Source: Moesziomyces globuligerus
Taxonomy: Eukaryota; Basidiomycota; Ustilaginomycetes; Ustilaginales; Ustilaginaceae
Length of the DNA stretch: 64,000 nt
NCBI GenBank assembly: GCA_030849465.1
Contig: JARVLF010000015.1
Coordinates: 248,001-312,000, forward strand
Reading direction: 5' to 3'
Made by a program: the position numbers and the translations under genes
Notes under the pieces: model-generated
Told to the model about the DNA's origin: nothing
Database searches by the model: none
Seen by the model: the letters and a program-made list of their open reading frames with translations, nothing else
In this document: piece by piece, positions 4,665 to 32,650 of the stretch
Numbering within the stretch: position 1 is the first letter of the stretch
Layout of the letters: each line of letters begins with the position of its first letter

Positions 4665-6773
4665 CTACACGGCCCAGGCCGTCCGTGCCCGATCCTTCCT
4701 CCAAAGCACATGTGCGCCGCGCCTCGGGCCAAGCAAGTAGCCTCTGTCGAGTTCGATCTGGATCGGCGTCGTTTCCTTCGGGTCCTGGGTCGTCTGACCA
4801 AAGATGCGCTGGAGTCTACGCACGGCGCTGGGCCAAGCGAAGACCGTGATATGTCCGAGCCCCCTCCCCATGCGATGATCGCCGCCGGGCCAGGTACGCA
4901 GCAGATGTAGCGCTTCGATGAAGTCCTGCATGTCGGTTTCGAGCTGAAACACATCCTCGTCCACCTCGTCGTCGTCGTTCGCCGTCGTCTGAGCTTGGTG
5001 TGTTGTCTCTAGCGTCGGTAATTGAGTTGGCGACCAGGTATCTCTTCCATTCTGAAACGCCGGTCCTCGCCTGCGCGTGACCAGCCTGAGCTCCAACTTC
5101 TCGAGTAACGGTAGGGTGACGCGCAGCTCGCGGGCGGTTGCGGGATCCATACCGAACACCAGCAGTTCGAGCTCCCTCAGGTCTTCGAAGGTCGGAAGAC
5201 TCAGGTAAGGGATGGTGGTAAGTTCCGTGCAGAGCCTGGAAGGCTGCGGGCCCTTTTCGAGCCTCGACACCGTGCCCGTATGGAGCGCGCCCATGCTGAA
5301 GAGATCGAGGCTAAGCTCGTGCAGCTGCGGCATGGCGAGAAGCATCTGCTCGATACCCACCGCCAGCGGACCATGATCCGCCAGCGCAGAGGGACAGTAG
5401 CCAGAAGCGTCAAACTCGGAGCTGCCGATTTGGAGCCGCCGTACGTGCTTGCCGAGCGACGGATTGTGCAGCGCCAGTGTGACGCGAAACGAACGGAACG
5501 CCGCCGGCGTATGCAGCGACACACTGTGGTACAGCTTCGGGACGATCAGATGGTAGTATCGACGCGACAGCACCAGCATGTTGGTTGGACACGATCGTGG
5601 TTCGTGCGGTGACAGGCTCGGACACGCGGCCATCAGCAAGATGTGCGAAACCAGCTCCTCGGGAAGCTGGCGGAACTCGCCTGGCGAAGTGCGGCTTGCA
5701 GCGGGAGCAGTTCCTGGCATTGTATTTCGATAGGCCTTGGATTGTGTCGTATCAGTGTATGATGCAGGCCTGCCGACTGCCCAGCGAGCGAGGTTCCTGA
5801 GGCGTTGTCCGATGCGGGTATCGAGCGCTTCGTAGGCTAGCACGTTGACGAGGCTCTCGATCTCGGGATACACAGGTACCTCGATTCTCCTCTGAGGATC
5901 CGTGACCGCGATCCAGTCCCTCCGTTTTGCTGCTGTGAGCAATGCTGTCGCCAGATCGTTCGCGGTGCCTGCTCTTCTCGCTGTTGCGGCGCTCTCGGAA
6001 TGGATATGCCGATGCACGAAGGGCCTGGGCACGCCTGTCGGCTGAACGCTATCCGGCAGATTCGTACCGCCGATTCCGCCGCCGTTCCACTGGGTGGTGG
6101 GAACGATGGGTGCACCGGACGGCCAGGTGGTCGAGCCAAGCAGCAGCAGGCTGCTGTGCGGGTTGGCGGAGCGCGAGGCGAGTCGGGCCTGAAGACGCGT
6201 GCCGAAGCAGTCGCAGATGCGTTCGACGGCGTTGCGAAAGCCGAGGTAGATGAGACGCGAGATGATGAAGGCGGCCACCGCGTCGAGGAGCAGGTACGAG
6301 GCCGAGAACATGAGCACGATGCCCCACATGCGCGGACTCGGTCGAATCGCCCTGATCCACTCGATGCGCACCAGCGCCGGCACGGGCGAACCTCTGGACG
6401 AAGAAGCGAGGATGAAGATGGAAAGGCAGCTGCGGACGATCACAGCGCTGGTAGAAGGTAGGTTATGCACGAGACTGGGTGAAGACAACAGATCGCGCCG
6501 ACTGATGTTCATGCCAAGGATCAATGTTGCAAAGACGGGGGAGGTTCCGTAGAGCAAGCCAGTTGGCCCTAGTGCAGCTTCACATGTCAGCCGTGCTACG
6601 GTAGAAGCAGCGAGCTTGAGTGTGTCAGCGCCAGAAGCGGTGAGACTGGTTAGGCTTCCCTGATGAGCAGCGAAAGGAAGGGAGAGAGATGAAGTGGGCT
6701 GGACCGGACTAAACTTGGTGTTCCTCGAGCCGTTGTCTTGTCGTGTGGTGCTGCGGCTGCACGCACCCTGCAT
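4665..6773 (-). CDS. F-box-like protein with N-terminal membrane segments
   Basis: A 702-residue open frame starting at the ATG whose complement is 6771-6773; one further codon upstream is TTG. The N-terminal third has hydrophobic stretches at about 112-133 and 148-176, which look like membrane helices. A middle part of unknown family follows. From about residue 369, LPEELVSHILLMA matches the start of an F-box, and the remaining 320 residues hold Leu-rich segments (LHELSLDLF, LRELELLVF, LEKLELRLV) like the leucine-rich tail of fungal F-box proteins. F-box proteins act as substrate adaptors for SCF ubiquitin ligases. An internal ATG near 5720 sits just before the F-box and could start a shorter conventional protein. 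The fusion may therefore be real, or an upstream gene and an F-box gene may share one open frame. Confidence 0.6.
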   Translation of the reverse strand: MQGACSRSTTRQDNGSRNTKFSPVQPTSSLSLPFAAHQGSLTSLTASGADTLKLAASTVARLTCEAALGPTGLLYGTSPVFATLILGMNISRRDLLSSPSLVHNLPSTSAVIVRSCLSIFILASSSRGSPVPALVRIEWIRAIRPSPRMWGIVLMFSASYLLLDAVAAFIISRLIYLGFRNAVERICDCFGTRLQARLASRSANPHSSLLLLGSTTWPSGAPIVPTTQWNGGGIGGTNLPDSVQPTGVPRPFVHRHIHSESAATARRAGTANDLATALLTAAKRRDWIAVTDPQRRIEVPVYPEIESLVNVLAYEALDTRIGQRLRNLARWAVGRPASYTDTTQSKAYRNTMPGTAPAASRTSPGEFRQLPEELVSHILLMAACPSLSPHEPRSCPTNMLVLSRRYYHLIVPKLYHSVSLHTPAAFRSFRVTLALHNPSLGKHVRRLQIGSSEFDASGYCPSALADHGPLAVGIEQMLLAMPQLHELSLDLFSMGALHTGTVSRLEKGPQPSRLCTELTTIPYLSLPTFEDLRELELLVFGMDPATARELRVTLPLLEKLELRLVTRRRGPAFQNGRDTWSPTQLPTLETTHQAQTTANDDDEVDEDVFQLETDMQDFIEALHLLRTWPGGDHRMGRGLGHITVFAWPSAVRRLQRIFGQTTQDPKETTPIQIELDRGYLLGPRRGAHVLWRKDRARTAWAV

Positions 6774-7226
6774 CAAAGCCTGTGCATCTCAGCTGCCCGA
6801 TAGTGCGGATACGGCGCTGGCTGATGCCTTGGCTGTTGCATTGGCCCGGTTGCTCCGGGCGGTGGCCGCAGAGTTACCGCTCGGTGGCACACGGACCCAA
6901 ATCCGCACAGCTCCACATCTCCGGTATGCCCAGTCGGGCCTGTTTCGTGCGTGATGAGCCAAGGTGTGAGACCGAGCGACAGAACACATCGTCGAGGAAA
7001 ATGACTGCATTCCGGAAATCCCGACCCGAGCAATCTCCGCCAGCAGACCCTTTCGCATTTGGCCTGAGCCTGTAACTGAGCATCTTTTCGCGGCGACTTC
7101 CTCGGACCCTGCCCCATCGCTCTGCCCTTGCCTACGATCCTAATCCCACTCGCTGCGCCATTGAGGAGCGCGAAGGCCGCAACGAGCCCACGAATGGCAA
7201 GCGCCTCAATAGCTTTGCCGTCAAGA
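6774..7226. promoter_or_regulatory. Divergent promoter region, F-box-like gene and YTP1-like gene
   Basis: 453 bases between divergent starts. No conserved coding sequence or clear TATA box. The in-frame ATG at 7194 may also serve as the start of the downstream gene, which would shorten this region. Confidence 0.35.
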
Positions 7227-8816
7227 ATGGCGCCTACGTCCGGCAAGATGATGCTGCCACTCGCATGCTTCGCGCTCGCATGCATCCCGGCGGCCCGCGC
7301 TCACGGTCACCATGCACATGGTCCTGCGGACAACTCGGTGCCCATCGACAGCATCCTTTGGATCCACATCGGCATTCAGACGCTGGCGTGGTTCTTCCTC
7401 TTCCCGCTCGCCATGGTGCTCGGCATGGTGCGTCACCGCCTGCACGTGCCGCTCGCCACGGCCTCCCTGGCGCTCACCGTAGGCGGCTACTTTCTCGGCC
7501 ACGGTCACGGCGGCCGCCAGTTCCCGCACACGGCCCACGGCACCATGGCCTCGCTGCTCGTCTTCTACCTCGGCGCCCAAACCTTCCTTGGCATCTACCT
7601 CAAGCTTCACCTCCAATGGCGTCCGGAGAAGTGGATCCGACCCACCCTCGTCACGATCCACGGCGTGCTCGGCAAGAGCTTCCCCATCGTCGGCTGGGTG
7701 CAGATGGTCTTGGGCGTCTCGACGCTCCAGTCGTGGTGCTTCGGCGGCCATCTTGGCCAGTGCCTCGCCCACTACATCATGGGCTCTGCCTTCCAGGCGT
7801 ATGCGGCGATCCTGGTCATCATGATGAAGGCCGGCGGCGACTGGCTGCAGCGCCGCGGCCAGAGCCAGGAATGGTTCGACTCGTGGGTCATCATGCTCTG
7901 GGGCATCGTCAACACGTTTACCGAGCACCACGGCGGGCCGTGGACGCACAAGGACCTGCAGCACACGCTCATGGGCGTGCTGTGGTGGGCTGGAGGTGCT
8001 CTGGGCATCTGGCTTAGCCGCGGAGGCCGACGCAACGTCTTCCCTTCGATCATCATCATCCTGACGGGCTGGGCGATGAGCGCGCATGCGCAGGAGCTCA
8101 TGATCTCGACCATGGTCCACTCGCTGTTTGGCTACGCGCTCATGGGCGCGGGTATCGCACGCATGATCGAGGTCTGCTTTGTCCTCCAGGATCGCCCGAC
8201 CGGCACCACGCACGAGTCGCCCGACGTACCGCTCGCTCGCCAGGAGGCCGTCAACGGAAGCTGGTATCCGATCAAGGCGTTCCAGTACCTGCCGCCGTAT
8301 CTGCTGGTCGCGTCTGGCGTGCTCTTCATGTCGGCGACCGACGAAGAGCTGCGCTGGGCCGACGGACGCGGCGTCGACCACGGTACCTGGGGCCTGATCG
8401 ATTTCAGTGCTTCGATGCTCGTCTTTCTGTGGATCAACGTGCTCGTCGACCTCTACGTCGGATACGGCGGGCGGTACGGTGCGGCGCGCAAGAACGCAGC
8501 ACAGGTCAGAGCAGCGGACCGCGAAGCACAGCCGAGCCGCTCGATGTACGCGCGACTAAGCCTTGGCGGCAGTAGCGGGCGCGACGCTGGCACAAATGCG
8601 ACTTCCCGTTCCCGTCCTGCACCGGCTGCTGCGGCTGCGGAGCACCACGAGCTGAACGGACTGACCGGAAAGACTCGGGGCGCCTACGATGACGGTATGG
8701 GCGAGCCGAATCACGTACTTTTCGACGAAGAGGACGAGGACCCGTTCGAGGAGAAGGACCGTGACGACGGACAGAGCAGCGGCAGCAGCGCAGGACGTGG
8801 GCGCATTCAGCTCTGA
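7227..8816 (+). CDS. YTP1: YTP1-family polytopic membrane protein
   Basis: A 529-residue membrane protein of the fungal YTP1 family (DUF2427 region followed by the Ytp1 region, cytochrome b561-like topology). I chose the ATG at 7227: it has A at -3 and G at +4, and it leads straight into a signal peptide (PLACFALACIPAARA) followed by a His-rich start, AHGHHAHG. An in-frame ATG at 7194 would add 11 residues; the open frame reaches further up only to a TTG. About ten or more transmembrane helices follow, with family landmarks such as HTAHGTMASLLVFYLG, HGVLGKSFPIVGW, NTFTEHHGG and the Ser/Ala-rich charged tail after about residue 415. The molecular function of YTP1 proteins is unsettled; membrane-bound histidines suggest haem or metal binding, which is inference. 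A 15-base C tract begins four bases past the stop. Confidence 0.88.
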   Translation: MAPTSGKMMLPLACFALACIPAARAHGHHAHGPADNSVPIDSILWIHIGIQTLAWFFLFPLAMVLGMVRHRLHVPLATASLALTVGGYFLGHGHGGRQFPHTAHGTMASLLVFYLGAQTFLGIYLKLHLQWRPEKWIRPTLVTIHGVLGKSFPIVGWVQMVLGVSTLQSWCFGGHLGQCLAHYIMGSAFQAYAAILVIMMKAGGDWLQRRGQSQEWFDSWVIMLWGIVNTFTEHHGGPWTHKDLQHTLMGVLWWAGGALGIWLSRGGRRNVFPSIIIILTGWAMSAHAQELMISTMVHSLFGYALMGAGIARMIEVCFVLQDRPTGTTHESPDVPLARQEAVNGSWYPIKAFQYLPPYLLVASGVLFMSATDEELRWADGRGVDHGTWGLIDFSASMLVFLWINVLVDLYVGYGGRYGAARKNAAQVRAADREAQPSRSMYARLSLGGSSGRDAGTNATSRSRPAPAAAAAEHHELNGLTGKTRGAYDDGMGEPNHVLFDEEDEDPFEEKDRDDGQSSGSSAGRGRIQL

Positions 8817-27355: not shown

Positions 27356-29251
27356 TCACTCGTCTTGATCCTCATCGTCATCGAGGTCGTCCTCCTCGCC
27401 CGAGTGCCATCCGTAGAGGACGACGGTGGCGAGGCCGAGGAGGCCTGTGATGGTGCAGCCGGTGAAGGCGGCGATGGCGCGTCCGGTCCAGCCCGACTCG
27501 AGATAGGACGGGCCCTTTGCGAGGCCGTCAAAGTCGGTGGTCGAGTTGAGGCCGACGGCGTTGCCTGTGGTTGCGATGCCCTGTGCCTGGCACTGGTTCT
27601 TGATGTAAGCGGGGACGCTGAGGAAGTCGTTCGAGAGCACGTCGGGCGCCTCGATAAAGATCGAGGCGAGGCCCGAGACGAGATGAGGGTCGATGTGGCA
27701 GTGGAAGAACCAGGCGCCTGGATTGTCGGCACGGAAGCGCAGATACGCCGAGCCGCCGGGGGGCACCATGACGGTGTCTCGCCTCATGGGGTTGAGCTGC
27801 GACGCATTGAAGGGCGGGTTGATCGCCGGGTCGTCCGAGGTGACGTCCTGCGACTTGTGAACCACCTGGAAGTGGTGACCGTGGAGATGGAAGGGATGCT
27901 TGCCCGCGTCCCAGTTGAAGAGCTGCACCTCGACCATATCGTTGTGCTGGATGACAAAGGCGTTGGCGTTGGGCCCGTAGATGGCCGGATTGGAGGCCAG
28001 GGCGCCCATCGAATCGGCCGAGAGGAGCGCGGGGACCTTGGGAGCGACGTACGAGATGTTGTTGAAGGCGGCGTAGTTCTGGCCGTTGGACATGGTGTCG
28101 AACGAGACGTCGAGGCGGTGGACCGCATCCGGCTGCACCATGGGCTCTGCGTTGACGGGGGTGAACTGGAGATCGTCAAAGTAGGTGTACTCCTGGATGA
28201 TCTTCTCGGGACCGAATTCGCCCTTGGGAGCGTTGGGATACGAGATGGTAGCAGAGACATTGAGCTGAAGATCCTCGGGGACGAGGTCGAACATGTCCTC
28301 GTCCATGTTGGCGTGGAGCTTCCAGTTCTGGGGCGAGGAGTCGTTGCGGGCGGTGACGAGGACGCTGAAGCGCTGAGCGACGGCAAGCGAGAGGAAGTCG
28401 ACGGGACGGGGCTCGACGTCGACGCCCTCGATCTCGATGACCTGCATGTCGTGACCAGAGAGGTAGAAGTAGAAGGCTGCGAGTGCGGACATGTTGATGA
28501 CACGCAGGCGGTAGGTCTTGCCTGCTTCGAAGGGGAGCGTGGCATTCTCGCTGAAGCCGGGGAGGTAGGTTGCGAGGTTGGTGGTGTTGGGCGTGTGTGC
28601 AAAGTAGATGAGGGCGGACTTGGGCACGGGCTCGGCGCCGGTGGGGTTCTTGCGGTTCATGAACTCGTTCTTGACGAGGTCGGTGTAGTTGGAGTGGTAC
28701 CAGTCGCCGAGGATGACGGTGTAGTCGTCGTCGTAGGAGTAGTGCATGTCTGCCGGCTCGTCCGGATGGATGATGACGGGAGAGCGGAGGCCGTCGGTGT
28801 ACTGGTCGTTGTTGTGGGCGTGGATCCAGAAGGTGCCCATCTGCTTGCGACGGTCGGCGGGGGAGGCGGGCGAGTTGAGCGTCTCGTAGGTGAAGCTCTC
28901 GCCGGGAGGGATGGGGCACTGAGTGATGGCGACGGCACCATCAAAGTAGCCGGTGCGGTTGAAGAACATGCCGTGGGAGTGGAGCGAGGTGCCGACGCCG
29001 GTCTGGAGGCCGTTTGTGGCAGTGATGCGGAGGGTATCGGAGGCATTGACGTTGATGATGGGCGGAGGCCAGGTACCATTGACGCCGATGACGTGCCTTG
29101 GGAAGAGACCGTCCGGGTTGACGTCAGGGATCCAGTTGATGTTCCAGTGGTGCTCGACGGTGGCCGCACTGACGCTCGTGAGGAGCGAGCCAAGCGAGGA
29201 AGCAAGCAGGGCCAAAGCTGGCAGAGCCGTGCTTGGTCTTGTTCGGACCAT
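27356..29251 (-). CDS. fer1: Iron-transport multicopper oxidase (Fet3-type ferroxidase)
   Basis: A 631-residue plasma-membrane ferroxidase that oxidises Fe2+ for the partner permease. I start at the ATG complement of 29249-29251; the open frame goes seven codons higher to TTG. A signal peptide covers about 1-29. All four copper motifs are present: HSHG (91-94), WIHAH (142-146), HPFHLHGH (452-459) and HCHIDPH (517-523). Many N-glycosylation sequons (NGT, NAS, NRT, NYT, NTT) fit an external domain. One membrane helix near 589-615 and a short acidic tail give the type I topology of Fet3. It is divergent from the iron permease fer2, and the two share a promoter with five GATA-type iron boxes. This matches the U. 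maydis fer1/fer2 high-affinity iron system. Laccase is unlikely because of the membrane anchor and the permease partner. Confidence 0.94.
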   Translation of the reverse strand: MVRTRPSTALPALALLASSLGSLLTSVSAATVEHHWNINWIPDVNPDGLFPRHVIGVNGTWPPPIINVNASDTLRITATNGLQTGVGTSLHSHGMFFNRTGYFDGAVAITQCPIPPGESFTYETLNSPASPADRRKQMGTFWIHAHNNDQYTDGLRSPVIIHPDEPADMHYSYDDDYTVILGDWYHSNYTDLVKNEFMNRKNPTGAEPVPKSALIYFAHTPNTTNLATYLPGFSENATLPFEAGKTYRLRVINMSALAAFYFYLSGHDMQVIEIEGVDVEPRPVDFLSLAVAQRFSVLVTARNDSSPQNWKLHANMDEDMFDLVPEDLQLNVSATISYPNAPKGEFGPEKIIQEYTYFDDLQFTPVNAEPMVQPDAVHRLDVSFDTMSNGQNYAAFNNISYVAPKVPALLSADSMGALASNPAIYGPNANAFVIQHNDMVEVQLFNWDAGKHPFHLHGHHFQVVHKSQDVTSDDPAINPPFNASQLNPMRRDTVMVPPGGSAYLRFRADNPGAWFFHCHIDPHLVSGLASIFIEAPDVLSNDFLSVPAYIKNQCQAQGIATTGNAVGLNSTTDFDGLAKGPSYLESGWTGRAIAAFTGCTITGLLGLATVVLYGWHSGEEDDLDDDEDQDE

Positions 29252-31091
29252 GTTGTGCTGGATTGACCACAAAGGTACAGAGTGGCGACACGGGAGGGCG
29301 GGAAGATGGAAGAGCCGCGGATACCAAGAGGTGGGTGGACTGGGGGCCGGAAGAAGCGGGCACGAGGGACGCTTCGCGAGCTAGTTTATCAGAGAAGTGG
29401 CGGGAGCCGGCGAGCGAGTGTACGGCGCTGGAGAGGTTCGGCAGTCACTGCCGAGGAAGTGAGAATCGGTCCGGTGTGTGATGAGCGAGAGGAGGGAGGA
29501 GATCCAGGCTCTGGAAGCGGTTGCTGGAAGCGGTTGATGGAGCCGAGGAAGAAGACGAAGAAAAAATAATGGCAGCTGATCGAGGGCGGAGCGAATGAAG
29601 TGATCTGATAAGCGGGAGCAAGGTGAGTTTGTTGGCGCAGGAACGGGAGCGGCAAGGAGCTAGAGAGGAGCCAAGGTGATGCGCACGCTTCGGGGAGGAG
29701 CGGAAGGAGGGTCGAAGGCCAACGATTGGGCGTCGGGAGCGGGTCGGCTTGAATGGTTAGAGGAGGCAAGGTTTGTGGAATTGGACAAAGCCTATTCGGA
29801 CTGGGCCGAGCCGGACGACGAACAAGACGAGCGAGAGAGGTTGAGCAGTGTATCAGATCGGATCAGATAAGAAATGAGCCACAGAGCTCCAGTGCCTCGA
29901 GAGCTCCCGCTCGCGCTCCAAAGCGCGAGAGGCTCGCCTACTGGGCATGTGGCAAGCAGTGCATGACAAGTGGCTAAAGCTGGCCTGGCCCGCCTGGCCC
30001 GCCTGGCCATGGCGGAGTCGAGGTGGTGCACTGACCAAATCACAGCCGACTTCTGTGCTCGAGTCGGCCCATTGTCGTTGGTGGCAGCTCTGGCGCAACG
30101 ACGGCACGCGCTATGCCCGCCAAACCCACGGCTGGAGCAGGCGCAGGATGCCACGAGACGGAGCCGCAACCGTCGGAGTCAGAATAACCTCTCCTGCGGC
30201 TGGTGAATCGCATGCACGACTCTGCATATCGAACTGCCGAGCGCTGGCTCGTGGTGCGGCCGAGCGTGGACCGTGGGTCGGTTGCTCACTAGGCTCAACG
30301 TGGCGCATGCAGCCAGGGTCGTGCTGCCTCGGTTCGGCTCGACTCTGCTCTGCTCTGGAGCTTCTATCTGATAAACCACCTCTCGCTCCTCCTTTTCCTG
30401 CGCACACAGAGTTTGGCCGGCTGATCCGGAGCATGGTGAGCCCTCGCATCTGCCCACGCTAGCCCTCATTGTCTCTCAGCCCTCGGCTCCCTCGGCTCCC
30501 TCGGCTCCCAAATCCGATCCTCGTCCAAACCTGTGGATGAAAAGTCGTCAGAGAGGGCTCCCGTGTCGGTGCGGCATGGTGAAGCGGGCCAGACCAATCC
30601 CTCGGCCGCCTGATCTGATAATCCGCACCGCCCGCCGCTGGCTCCCTCCCTGCTCCCTCTTTTTTTTTTTTTCATCCCATTGTCTTGCGCCTTGTTGCCA
30701 TCCTCCGAACCTTGCATCCACTCGCTCCGCACACCTTATTCGCTCTTTGCCTCACTCTCCGGAGCCATCCGGGTTGCGCCACTTGCTTCGGGCCCACCTT
30801 GGACCAATCCGCAGCGCCTTGTCCTTGGCTCCAAAAATCTTTGCTGCGCTCAACTGCGCTCAACCTTGAGCTTCATCCTCGACGAGGCTGATCGGTTTGG
30901 CCGCTTATCAGATCCGAAGTCAGACTCGACTCGTTCGTGCCTAGCCTTCTCTTGCTTCGGCAACCCAGTCCTACCTTTAAGCCCTTGCCTCGTCGCATCG
31001 GCTCCCCTACAAATCTTCCCTCGTGCTACGTTTCCAAGCCCCGTCACCTTCCCAACTCATCGCACCGCTTTCCACGCACGAGGCATCAACC
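29252..31091. promoter_or_regulatory. Shared divergent fer1-fer2 promoter with five GATA iron boxes
   Basis: 1.84 kb with no gene. Exact matches to ATCWGATAA, the long form of the GATA site used by fungal iron repressors (SreA; Urbs1 and Fep1 bind related GATA cores), lie at 29603-29611, 29862-29870, 30366-30374 and 30613-30621 on plus and 30905-30913 on minus. Near matches lie at 29386-29394 (minus, CTCTGATAA) and 29851-29858 (minus). The distribution covers both ends, so both genes can be controlled. The region also holds short direct repeats: GCCTGGCCC three times near 29981-30010, CCTCGGCTC units near 30480-30508, and CTGGAAGCGGTTG twice near 29510-29536. Confidence 0.85.
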
Positions 31092-32650
31092 ATGGCGGTC
31101 GGAAACAAGGTGTTCGCTCCGGCCATCTTCTTCATCGCCGCCAGAGAGGCGCTCGAGGCGTCGCTCGTCATCGGCATCCTCTCGGGCATGCTCGAGAACC
31201 TCGTCCTGCACACAAAGTCGGCCGAAGACATCCGCGACGAAGCCTCGCTCTCCGACGACGAACGTCAACACGCCGATCGCAAGCGCCGCACCATCGTACG
31301 AAAGCTTCGCAAAGTCGTACGTAGCCGCGTCTCTTCGCTTCGACCCTTTGCTCTAGGAATCGCATGCTGATGCTCTTGTTGCTCTCTCCTTCTTTGCTTC
31401 GACGTGGTCATGTTCAGGTGCTGCTCGGCGCGTTGACAGGTCTGCTGATCGCGTTTGCCATCGGTGCCGCCTTCCTCGCCGTCTTCTACACCCAGGTCAA
31501 CGACCTCTATGGCAAGGCCGAGGAGCTCTGGGAGGGCATCTTCAACCTCGTCGCCGTGCTGCTCATCACGCCCATGTCGCTCGCCATCCTCCGCGCAGGA
31601 AACAGCAAGCGCAAGTGGAAGCGAAAGCTCGAGAGCGCCTTTAACGAACGTCACATCCAGCCCACCCGAGCACGCGATGAGGAGCGCGCCTCTACCGCCG
31701 TCGCTCGTCCCATCGCTGAGGACGATGTTGCTTCCTCCTCTTCCTCTTCGGCTATTCGAGCTGCCAACGCCAGCGCGGACACCGAGGCGAACACCAAGAC
31801 GACGGGTACCGAGAAGCTCAACCCACTCGAGGCGGTTGATGTCGTCCCTACCATGGCTCGGAGCGCTCCGACGGCGCGATCGAGTCGAGGACTGCGTGGT
31901 CTGTTTTCCAAGCCCTCGGGTGCGGTCAGCGATCTCAAGCTCAGGATGAACCGTGGAACGCTCGCGCTCTTCACCATCCCGCTCATCACCACGCTCCGCG
32001 AAGGTCTGGAGGGTGTCGTCTTTATCGGCGGTGTCTCGCTCGGTCTTCCTGCTACCTCGATCCCGCTCCCGGCGATCGTCGGTCTCGGCGTAGGTTTGCT
32101 CATCGGCTACCTCATCTTCCGCTCCGGCAACGTGCTCTCTGTCCGCATCTTCCTCGTCGGCTCGACGTGCTTCCTCCTACTCATCGCCTCGGGCATGGCA
32201 AGCCGCGCCGTGTACTACCTCCAGTTCTACGCCTACGTCAAGCTCGTCGGCGACGCCGCTGCCGAGTCGGGTGACGGTCCCGGCTCGTTCAACGCCCAGG
32301 GCTACATCTGGCACTTTAACTGCTGCAATCCAGAAGCCAACAAGGGCGGCACAGGCTGGGGCATTCTCAACTCGCTCTTTGGCTGGAACAACACCGCTAC
32401 CTACGGCTCCGTCTTCATGTATGTTGGCTACTGGTTCGTCGTTGCAGGCTACCTCTGGTTCCAGATCTGGAAAGAAGGTCGCCTCGCTTTGGTCTGGAAC
32501 GGTAACACCGTCTGGCAGTCCAAGCGCGCCATCCGCATCCGCGAGGCTAAACAACTCAGGTCTCGTAACCGTCTCCAAACCCATCTCGACTCGAATCTCG
32601 TCTCCGACGAAAAGCCACCACAGCCAGGCCCTTCCTCCCTCCCCCAGTAG
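31092..32650 (+). CDS. fer2: High-affinity iron permease (Ftr1-type)
   Basis: Two exons, 31092-31316 and 31418-32650, with a 101-base intron (donor GTACGT, acceptor TTCAG) give 485 residues. The donor was chosen because it alone keeps frame and gives RKVVLLGALTG, matching the family's second membrane helix. It carries the iron-binding motifs REALE at 18-22 and REGLE at 269-273; the second lies in TTLREGLEGVVFIGG. Seven membrane helices are traceable, with a Ser/Ala/Thr-rich loop of about 100 residues before the second motif, longer than usual. The C-terminal domain includes WHFNCCNPE and NSLFGWNNTATYGSV, typical of fungal Ftr1. It moves iron oxidised by the divergent fer1 product into the cell. 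Expression is expected to be repressed by iron through the shared GATA boxes. Confidence 0.94.

Follow-up and report, generated by a model that had tools for sequence, protein, structure and literature searches.

The divergent fer1-fer2 promoter of Moesziomyces globuligerus and its dense cluster of ATCWGATAA boxes, a probable target of an Urbs1-type iron repressor

In Ustilago maydis, fer1 and fer2 have been described as being regulated by Urbs1, with both genes up in low iron, and the loss of Grx4 has been reported to lower their expression under this condition (PMC10672361). The regulon response is not uniform, since sid1, sid2 and fer8 are described in the same Grx4 study as for the most part unresponsive to iron in wild-type cells at the chosen time point (PMC10672361). 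In Aspergillus fumigatus, the intergenic region of ftrA and fetC has a reported length of 1,326 bp and is, at full length, 5.9-fold more active in low iron (PMC10294635). For Aspergillus, repression of hapX by SreA has been described as well, and the grxD promoters of 20 species have been found to hold a conserved ATCWGATAA (PMC6762210).

The window analysed here, meaning the whole 64-kb stretch of M. globuligerus DNA, holds a comparable gene pair. A sequence-only reading of this window had pointed to five ATCWGATAA boxes between fer1 and fer2 and had ascribed the motif to SreA; the ascription agrees with the published record, in which ATCWGATAA is defined from SreA targets as the extended motif, with sites at U. 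maydis sid1 and Schizosaccharomyces pombe fio1-fip1 that comply with it (PMC2610380).

The fer1-fer2 spacer and its boxes

The fer1 gene (27356..29251, minus strand) encodes a Fet3-type multicopper ferroxidase of 631 aa with three Pfam Cu-oxidase matches. The protein is 93% identical to the cluster represented by the Moesziomyces antarcticus T-34 multicopper oxidase, and among solved structures it is closest to yeast FET3 (1zpu, E 1.9e-108), to which it aligns over most of its length. In this alignment, the columns of the three acidic iron-site residues of Fet3p, which we take to be numbered E185, D283 and D409, are occupied by E, D and D and are thus all identical; a comparison by eye with the laccase 9gly shows D retained in the middle column and A in the third. 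The fer2 gene encodes an FTR1-type permease in two predicted exons on the plus strand, the first (31092..31316) resting on translation and splice prediction and containing the start of the protein with REALE, the second (31418..32650) on splice prediction and a Pfam FTR1 match (E 3e-42) and containing REGLE. The predicted Fer2 accordingly has two REXLE motifs, REALE at 18 and REGLE at 269, and it has been the only FTR1 match in a search of the genome.

The start codons lie at 29251 on the minus strand (fer1) and at 31092 on the plus strand (fer2), so that the divergent genes share a single intergenic region of 1,840 bp (29252..31091) with a GC content of 60%. A scan of both strands of the window has returned five exact ATCWGATAA matches, all five inside this spacer and at the coordinates and strands that had been claimed for them, and no sixth. 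Box 1 (ATCTGATAA, 29603..29611, plus) and box 2 (ATCAGATAA, 29862..29870, plus) are centred 356 and 615 bp from the fer1 ATG, the central box 3 (ATCTGATAA, 30366..30374, plus) is located 1119 bp from fer1 and 722 bp from fer2, and box 4 (ATCTGATAA, 30613..30621, plus) and box 5 (ATCTGATAA, 30905..30913, minus) are found 475 and 183 bp from the fer2 ATG. The boxes span 1,311 bp with successive spacings of 259, 504, 247 and 292 bp, which leaves each gene with two boxes at most about 620 bp from its start in addition to the central one.

Three near matches, all on the minus strand, accompany the exact boxes. One of them (ATCAGATAG, 30364..30372), which had been missed in the sequence-only reading, overlaps box 3, and both read together give CTATCTGATAA, a near-palindromic double GATA. 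A further one (ATCTGATAC) adjoins box 2 at 12 bp from centre to centre and occupies 29850..29858, not 29851-29858 as had been noted. The third (CTCTGATAA, 29386..29394) has been placed correctly and is rated weak, because its motif class does not cluster away from contig ends. The spacer also contains CCAAT boxes, two facing each gene (ATTGG at 29725 and 29780, CCAAT at 30594 and 30804), which are possible candidates for sites of the CCAAT complex and HapX; their number does not exceed chance by a rough estimate.

Distribution of the boxes in the genome

The earlier statement that no exact match occurs elsewhere is valid for the 64-kb window and not for the genome, in which 59 exact matches have been counted over 18.54 Mb. 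We have rejected a strong over-representation of this total: the reversed pattern as a control gives 9 matches, but Markov expectations range from 25 to 62. As the total falls within the Markov expectation, single sites carry little weight, and the signal is the clustering. The 59 matches correspond to 56 distinct places, since three pairs represent one palindrome each, read on both strands. With a gap of 2 kb as the locus rule, the 56 places form 37 loci, of which 10 hold at least two places and together account for 29 of the 56. When 56 sites are placed at random 20,000 times, the number of multi-place loci averages 0.33 with a maximum of 4, and the largest cluster comprises 3 places (in 39 runs), with 4 or 5 in none. 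The fer1-fer2 spacer is the densest locus of the genome with 5 places, followed by the sid1-sid2 and the ferric reductase loci with 4 each.

Two degenerate patterns have served as controls. BTCWGATAA occurs at 98 sites (75 for its reversed control) and clusters only twice, both times no more than about 2.2 kb from contig ends; near matches of this class have therefore been rejected as regulatory. The repeated matches in question are found at C17:39-2092 and C20:636155-638106 and are perhaps subtelomeric repeats. ATCWGATAB occurs at 203 sites, and among the matches listed (100 of 203) there are four two-place loci, one of which is the fer1-fer2 spacer, and no three-place locus. Since pairs arise in this control, two-place loci count for less than loci of three to five places.

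For the spacer itself, chance expectations have been derived from nine Markov-type models with three kinds of training sequence: the window without the spacer, 205 kb from elsewhere in this genome (regions chosen for holding sites, with those sites masked) and the spacer. Eight of the nine predict 0.0025-0.0065 matches of ATCWGATAA in 1,840 bp. Models from the rest of the window or the 205 kb give 0.0025-0.006, and those trained on the spacer give about 0.006 at order 1 and order 2 and 0.083 at order 3. The five observed boxes thus exceed the 0.003-0.08 expected, with a Poisson probability of five or more of ~1e-13 at an expectation of 0.0065 and of ~3e-8 at 0.083. The bare core HGATAR occurs 7 times in the spacer; outside the spacer, 128 overlapping segments of 1,840 bp contain 1.6 on average and 5 at most, so that the core is less enriched than the extended motif. 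The count over window and genome, which had been proposed along with the boxes, places the spacer far above chance and locates the signal in the clustering.

Genes behind the boxes and a possible regulatory circuit

Eight of the 10 multi-place loci have been read as sequence (the window, L034, L035, L037, L038, L045, L050 and L051; C19:612925 and C21:496163 are outside this set). In all eight, the sites fall outside predicted coding sequence or ahead of its start, as judged from ORF predictions and, for L051, from a plain ORF list only. Six of the eight front genes of iron uptake, iron release or regulation. Besides fer1/fer2 with its five places in the window, these comprise the divergent sid1-sid2 promoter (L038, C5:260464-261590; five exact matches at four places), the ferric reductase locus (four places), the locus of a mirC-type MFS siderophore transporter (three places), a HapX/Yap1-type bZIP locus (L035, C3:436995-437338; two places) and a probable heme oxygenase locus (L050, C15:2303290-2313289, sites 4841 and 5147; two places). 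By family assignment, sid1 belongs to the ornithine monooxygenases (Lys_Orn_oxgnase) and sid2 is an NRPS; one of the four places between them is the TTATCTGATAA palindrome, which matches on both strands, and the boxes are located 1.2-2.3 kb from the sid2 start and 2.9-4.0 kb from the sid1 start, both starts being predicted. Within the same genome, sid1-sid2 and fer1-fer2 are alike as divergent iron-gene pairs with five exact matches and differ in that the sid1-sid2 boxes form four places, not five, and stand farther from the starts. The mirC-type protein shares 83% identity with Sporisorium reilianum proteins named 'probable siderophore iron transporter mirC'. The L050 gene is a probable heme oxygenase with boxes ~1.2-1.5 kb upstream of its likely start, hinting at heme-iron release as a part of the regulon. 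The remaining two loci front an ABCB-type transporter (three places) and an FSP1-like oxidoreductase (two places), neither of which is clearly an iron gene. Judged by coordinates only, the surroundings of C19:612925-612953 look like the ferrichrome A cluster, an acyltransferase-family match being found 1.5 kb downstream of it, next to a large NRPS. Counted over known regulon members, the motif is present with five matches at sid1/sid2, three at the mirC-type gene, two at the HapX-type bZIP and one at a Grx4-type gene.

Among the 27 single-place loci, 15 have been read as sequence, with the palindrome at C19:622187 being one of the 12 left out. In at least three of the 15 (L040, L041 and L048) the site is situated within a long ORF scored as coding, which fits chance. 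Single boxes have further been seen upstream of genes resembling Tah18/NDOR1 (131 bp; L031), Dre2 (~725 bp; L042) and Nar1 (~335 bp; L044), which all belong to cytosolic Fe-S assembly. Membership of the cytosolic Fe-S assembly pathway in the regulon has been rejected, as a test set beforehand on further genes of the pathway failed: no exact site has been found near the Nbp35/Cfd1-type matches (three PF10609 loci) or the Cia2-type match (one PF01883 locus), and of four glutaredoxin matches one, the Grx4-type, has an exact site nearby. Given this failure, the boxes in front of the Tah18-, Dre2- and Nar1-like genes are possibly due to chance.

The HapX-type bZIP and Grx4-type loci provide a further lead. 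The bZIP gene (L035, C3:432170-442169, 5531-7858, plus) is preceded by two exact boxes at 4826 and 5161, ~700 and ~360 bp upstream, and its product combines a Hap4-type CCAAT-complex-binding motif with a bZIP domain. Its cysteines are found in ORF numbering at 242, at 412/415/421/423, at 543/550/553/563 and in a C-terminal CPC at 771/773, and by eye they form CRR-B-like and CRR-C-like groups. Compared by eye with the published description, this plan is that of the U. maydis peroxide sensor Yap1, which a 2014 paper has suggested to be a Yap1/HapX chimera that might take part in iron homeostasis (PMC4232046). The Grx4-type monothiol gene (L054, C19:353150-354450, ATG at 428) combines, by eye, a Trx-like part with CGFS and carries a single box (99-107) 321 bp before its ATG, in line with the motif described for the Aspergillus grxD promoters (PMC6762210). 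The L035 boxes suggest that the repressor controls the HapX-type bZIP in the way SreA controls hapX, and one may postulate that the whole SreA-HapX-Grx4 iron circuit of Aspergillus is wired alike in smuts, a tentative proposal that falls just short of being probable. If it were true, the regulator of oxidative stress that the maize smut needs for virulence would be an iron-gated HapX under the repressor of fer1/fer2, and iron and peroxide sensing would be joined in one factor. Our searches, made in open-licence papers only, have shown no paper that makes this HapX/Yap1-Grx4 box link for smuts; it may be in print.

A candidate for the repressor itself has been obtained from the GATA family (PF00320), which has 12 matches in the genome and includes two double-finger genes among those found. 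In one of them (C16:643292-643831; L052, C16:643250-643900), the fingers are 146 residues apart with CX5CX8CX2C in between, which is the hallmark of Urbs1 and SreA. The second double-finger gene (L053, C20:192400-192850), with its fingers 84 residues apart, is devoid of this motif, and consequently the genes found include one candidate Urbs1 orthologue. No exact box occurs within 300 kb of the candidate gene on its contig.

Readings of the promoter and comparison with described systems

From the sequence evidence, we consider it highly likely that the spacer is a bidirectional fer1/fer2 promoter which an Urbs1/SreA/Fep1-type GATA factor represses through the ATCWGATAA boxes when iron is sufficient. 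For a promoter that is shut by iron, the boxes would very probably represent ordinary and expected biology, though they are unusually dense. Judging from relatives, with plentiful iron the Urbs1-type factor, probably an Fe-S-sensing protein that partners Grx4, would sit on the boxes and keep both genes shut; in low iron it would be released, and fer1 and fer2 would be made together, since their products function in a single complex. The earlier proposal that both genes belong to one iron regulon is supported by the extended SreA motif, by the pairing of a ferroxidase with an FTR1 permease, by the gene for an Urbs1/SreA-type factor and by the box clusters at other iron genes.

The same proposal had included a cooperative or looped mode of repression, in which repressor molecules bound at sites spread across 1.3 kb would touch one another and shut the two promoters as a unit. 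Five exact sites across 1,311 bp would suit such an arrangement, as would the two minus-strand near matches beside box 2 and overlapping box 3. There is also a precedent for the distance: An et al. (1997), by its title, reportedly ascribes the repression of sid1 in U. maydis to 'distal GATA sequences', and the sid1-sid2 sites of the present genome lie 1.2-4.0 kb from the predicted starts. Helical phasing has been rejected as a support, however, since the spacings amount to 24.7, 48.0, 23.5 and 27.8 turns without a common phase. As two sites at no more than 620 bp are available to each gene, separate local repression explains the layout and no loop is required; a single such element has been described at A. 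fumigatus ftrA (PMC10294635). We regard the cooperative or looped mode as unlikely. In the simplest view, the boxes nearest to each start, two per gene plus the central one, would have local and additive effects on each gene; cooperation or looping, though conceivable, is not needed.

A second alternative is that another GATA factor, e.g., a nitrogen regulator, mainly reads the boxes and that the link to iron is secondary. The genome offers readers of this kind in its 12 PF00320 matches and in the double-finger gene without the cysteine motif, but the lower enrichment of the bare GATA core in the spacer speaks against them, as does the publication of ATCWGATAA as the motif of the SreA regulon, here clustered mostly at iron genes, and we judge this reading to be quite improbable. 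That the boxes are accidents of composition within an A/T-richer stretch can practically be dismissed: the genome-wide total does stay near the order-1 Markov expectation (59 and 62), but the GC content of the spacer is like that of the window (61%), its five boxes stand against 0.003-0.08 expected, none of the 20,000 random placements has yielded a cluster of 4 or 5, the 98 sites of BTCWGATAA cluster at two contig ends only, and the listed ATCWGATAB matches (100 of 203) reach two places per locus in four cases, the spacer included, and three in none.

Repression of both genes by an Urbs1-type factor thus being the preferred reading, the iron-repressor code of fungi, consisting of ATCWGATAA and one Urbs1/SreA-type factor, would appear to read alike in a smut and in Aspergillus. 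The pair for reductive iron uptake is the most heavily marked locus of the genome, and a short list of candidate targets results from the other loci. Among the described systems, fer1-fer2 of U. maydis is a like kind of gene pair, reported to be regulated by Urbs1 and induced in low iron (PMC10672361). In fio1-fip1 of S. pombe, a cluster for reductive iron assimilation under Fep1, the described GATA-factor site complies with the motif (PMC2610380). The ftrA-fetC pair of A. fumigatus likewise joins a permease and a ferroxidase through one bidirectional promoter with the ATCWGATAA motif of SreA; it is described with one ATCWGATAA and a preceding GATAA on the opposite strand (PMC10294635), whereas the promoter presented here carries five exact copies.
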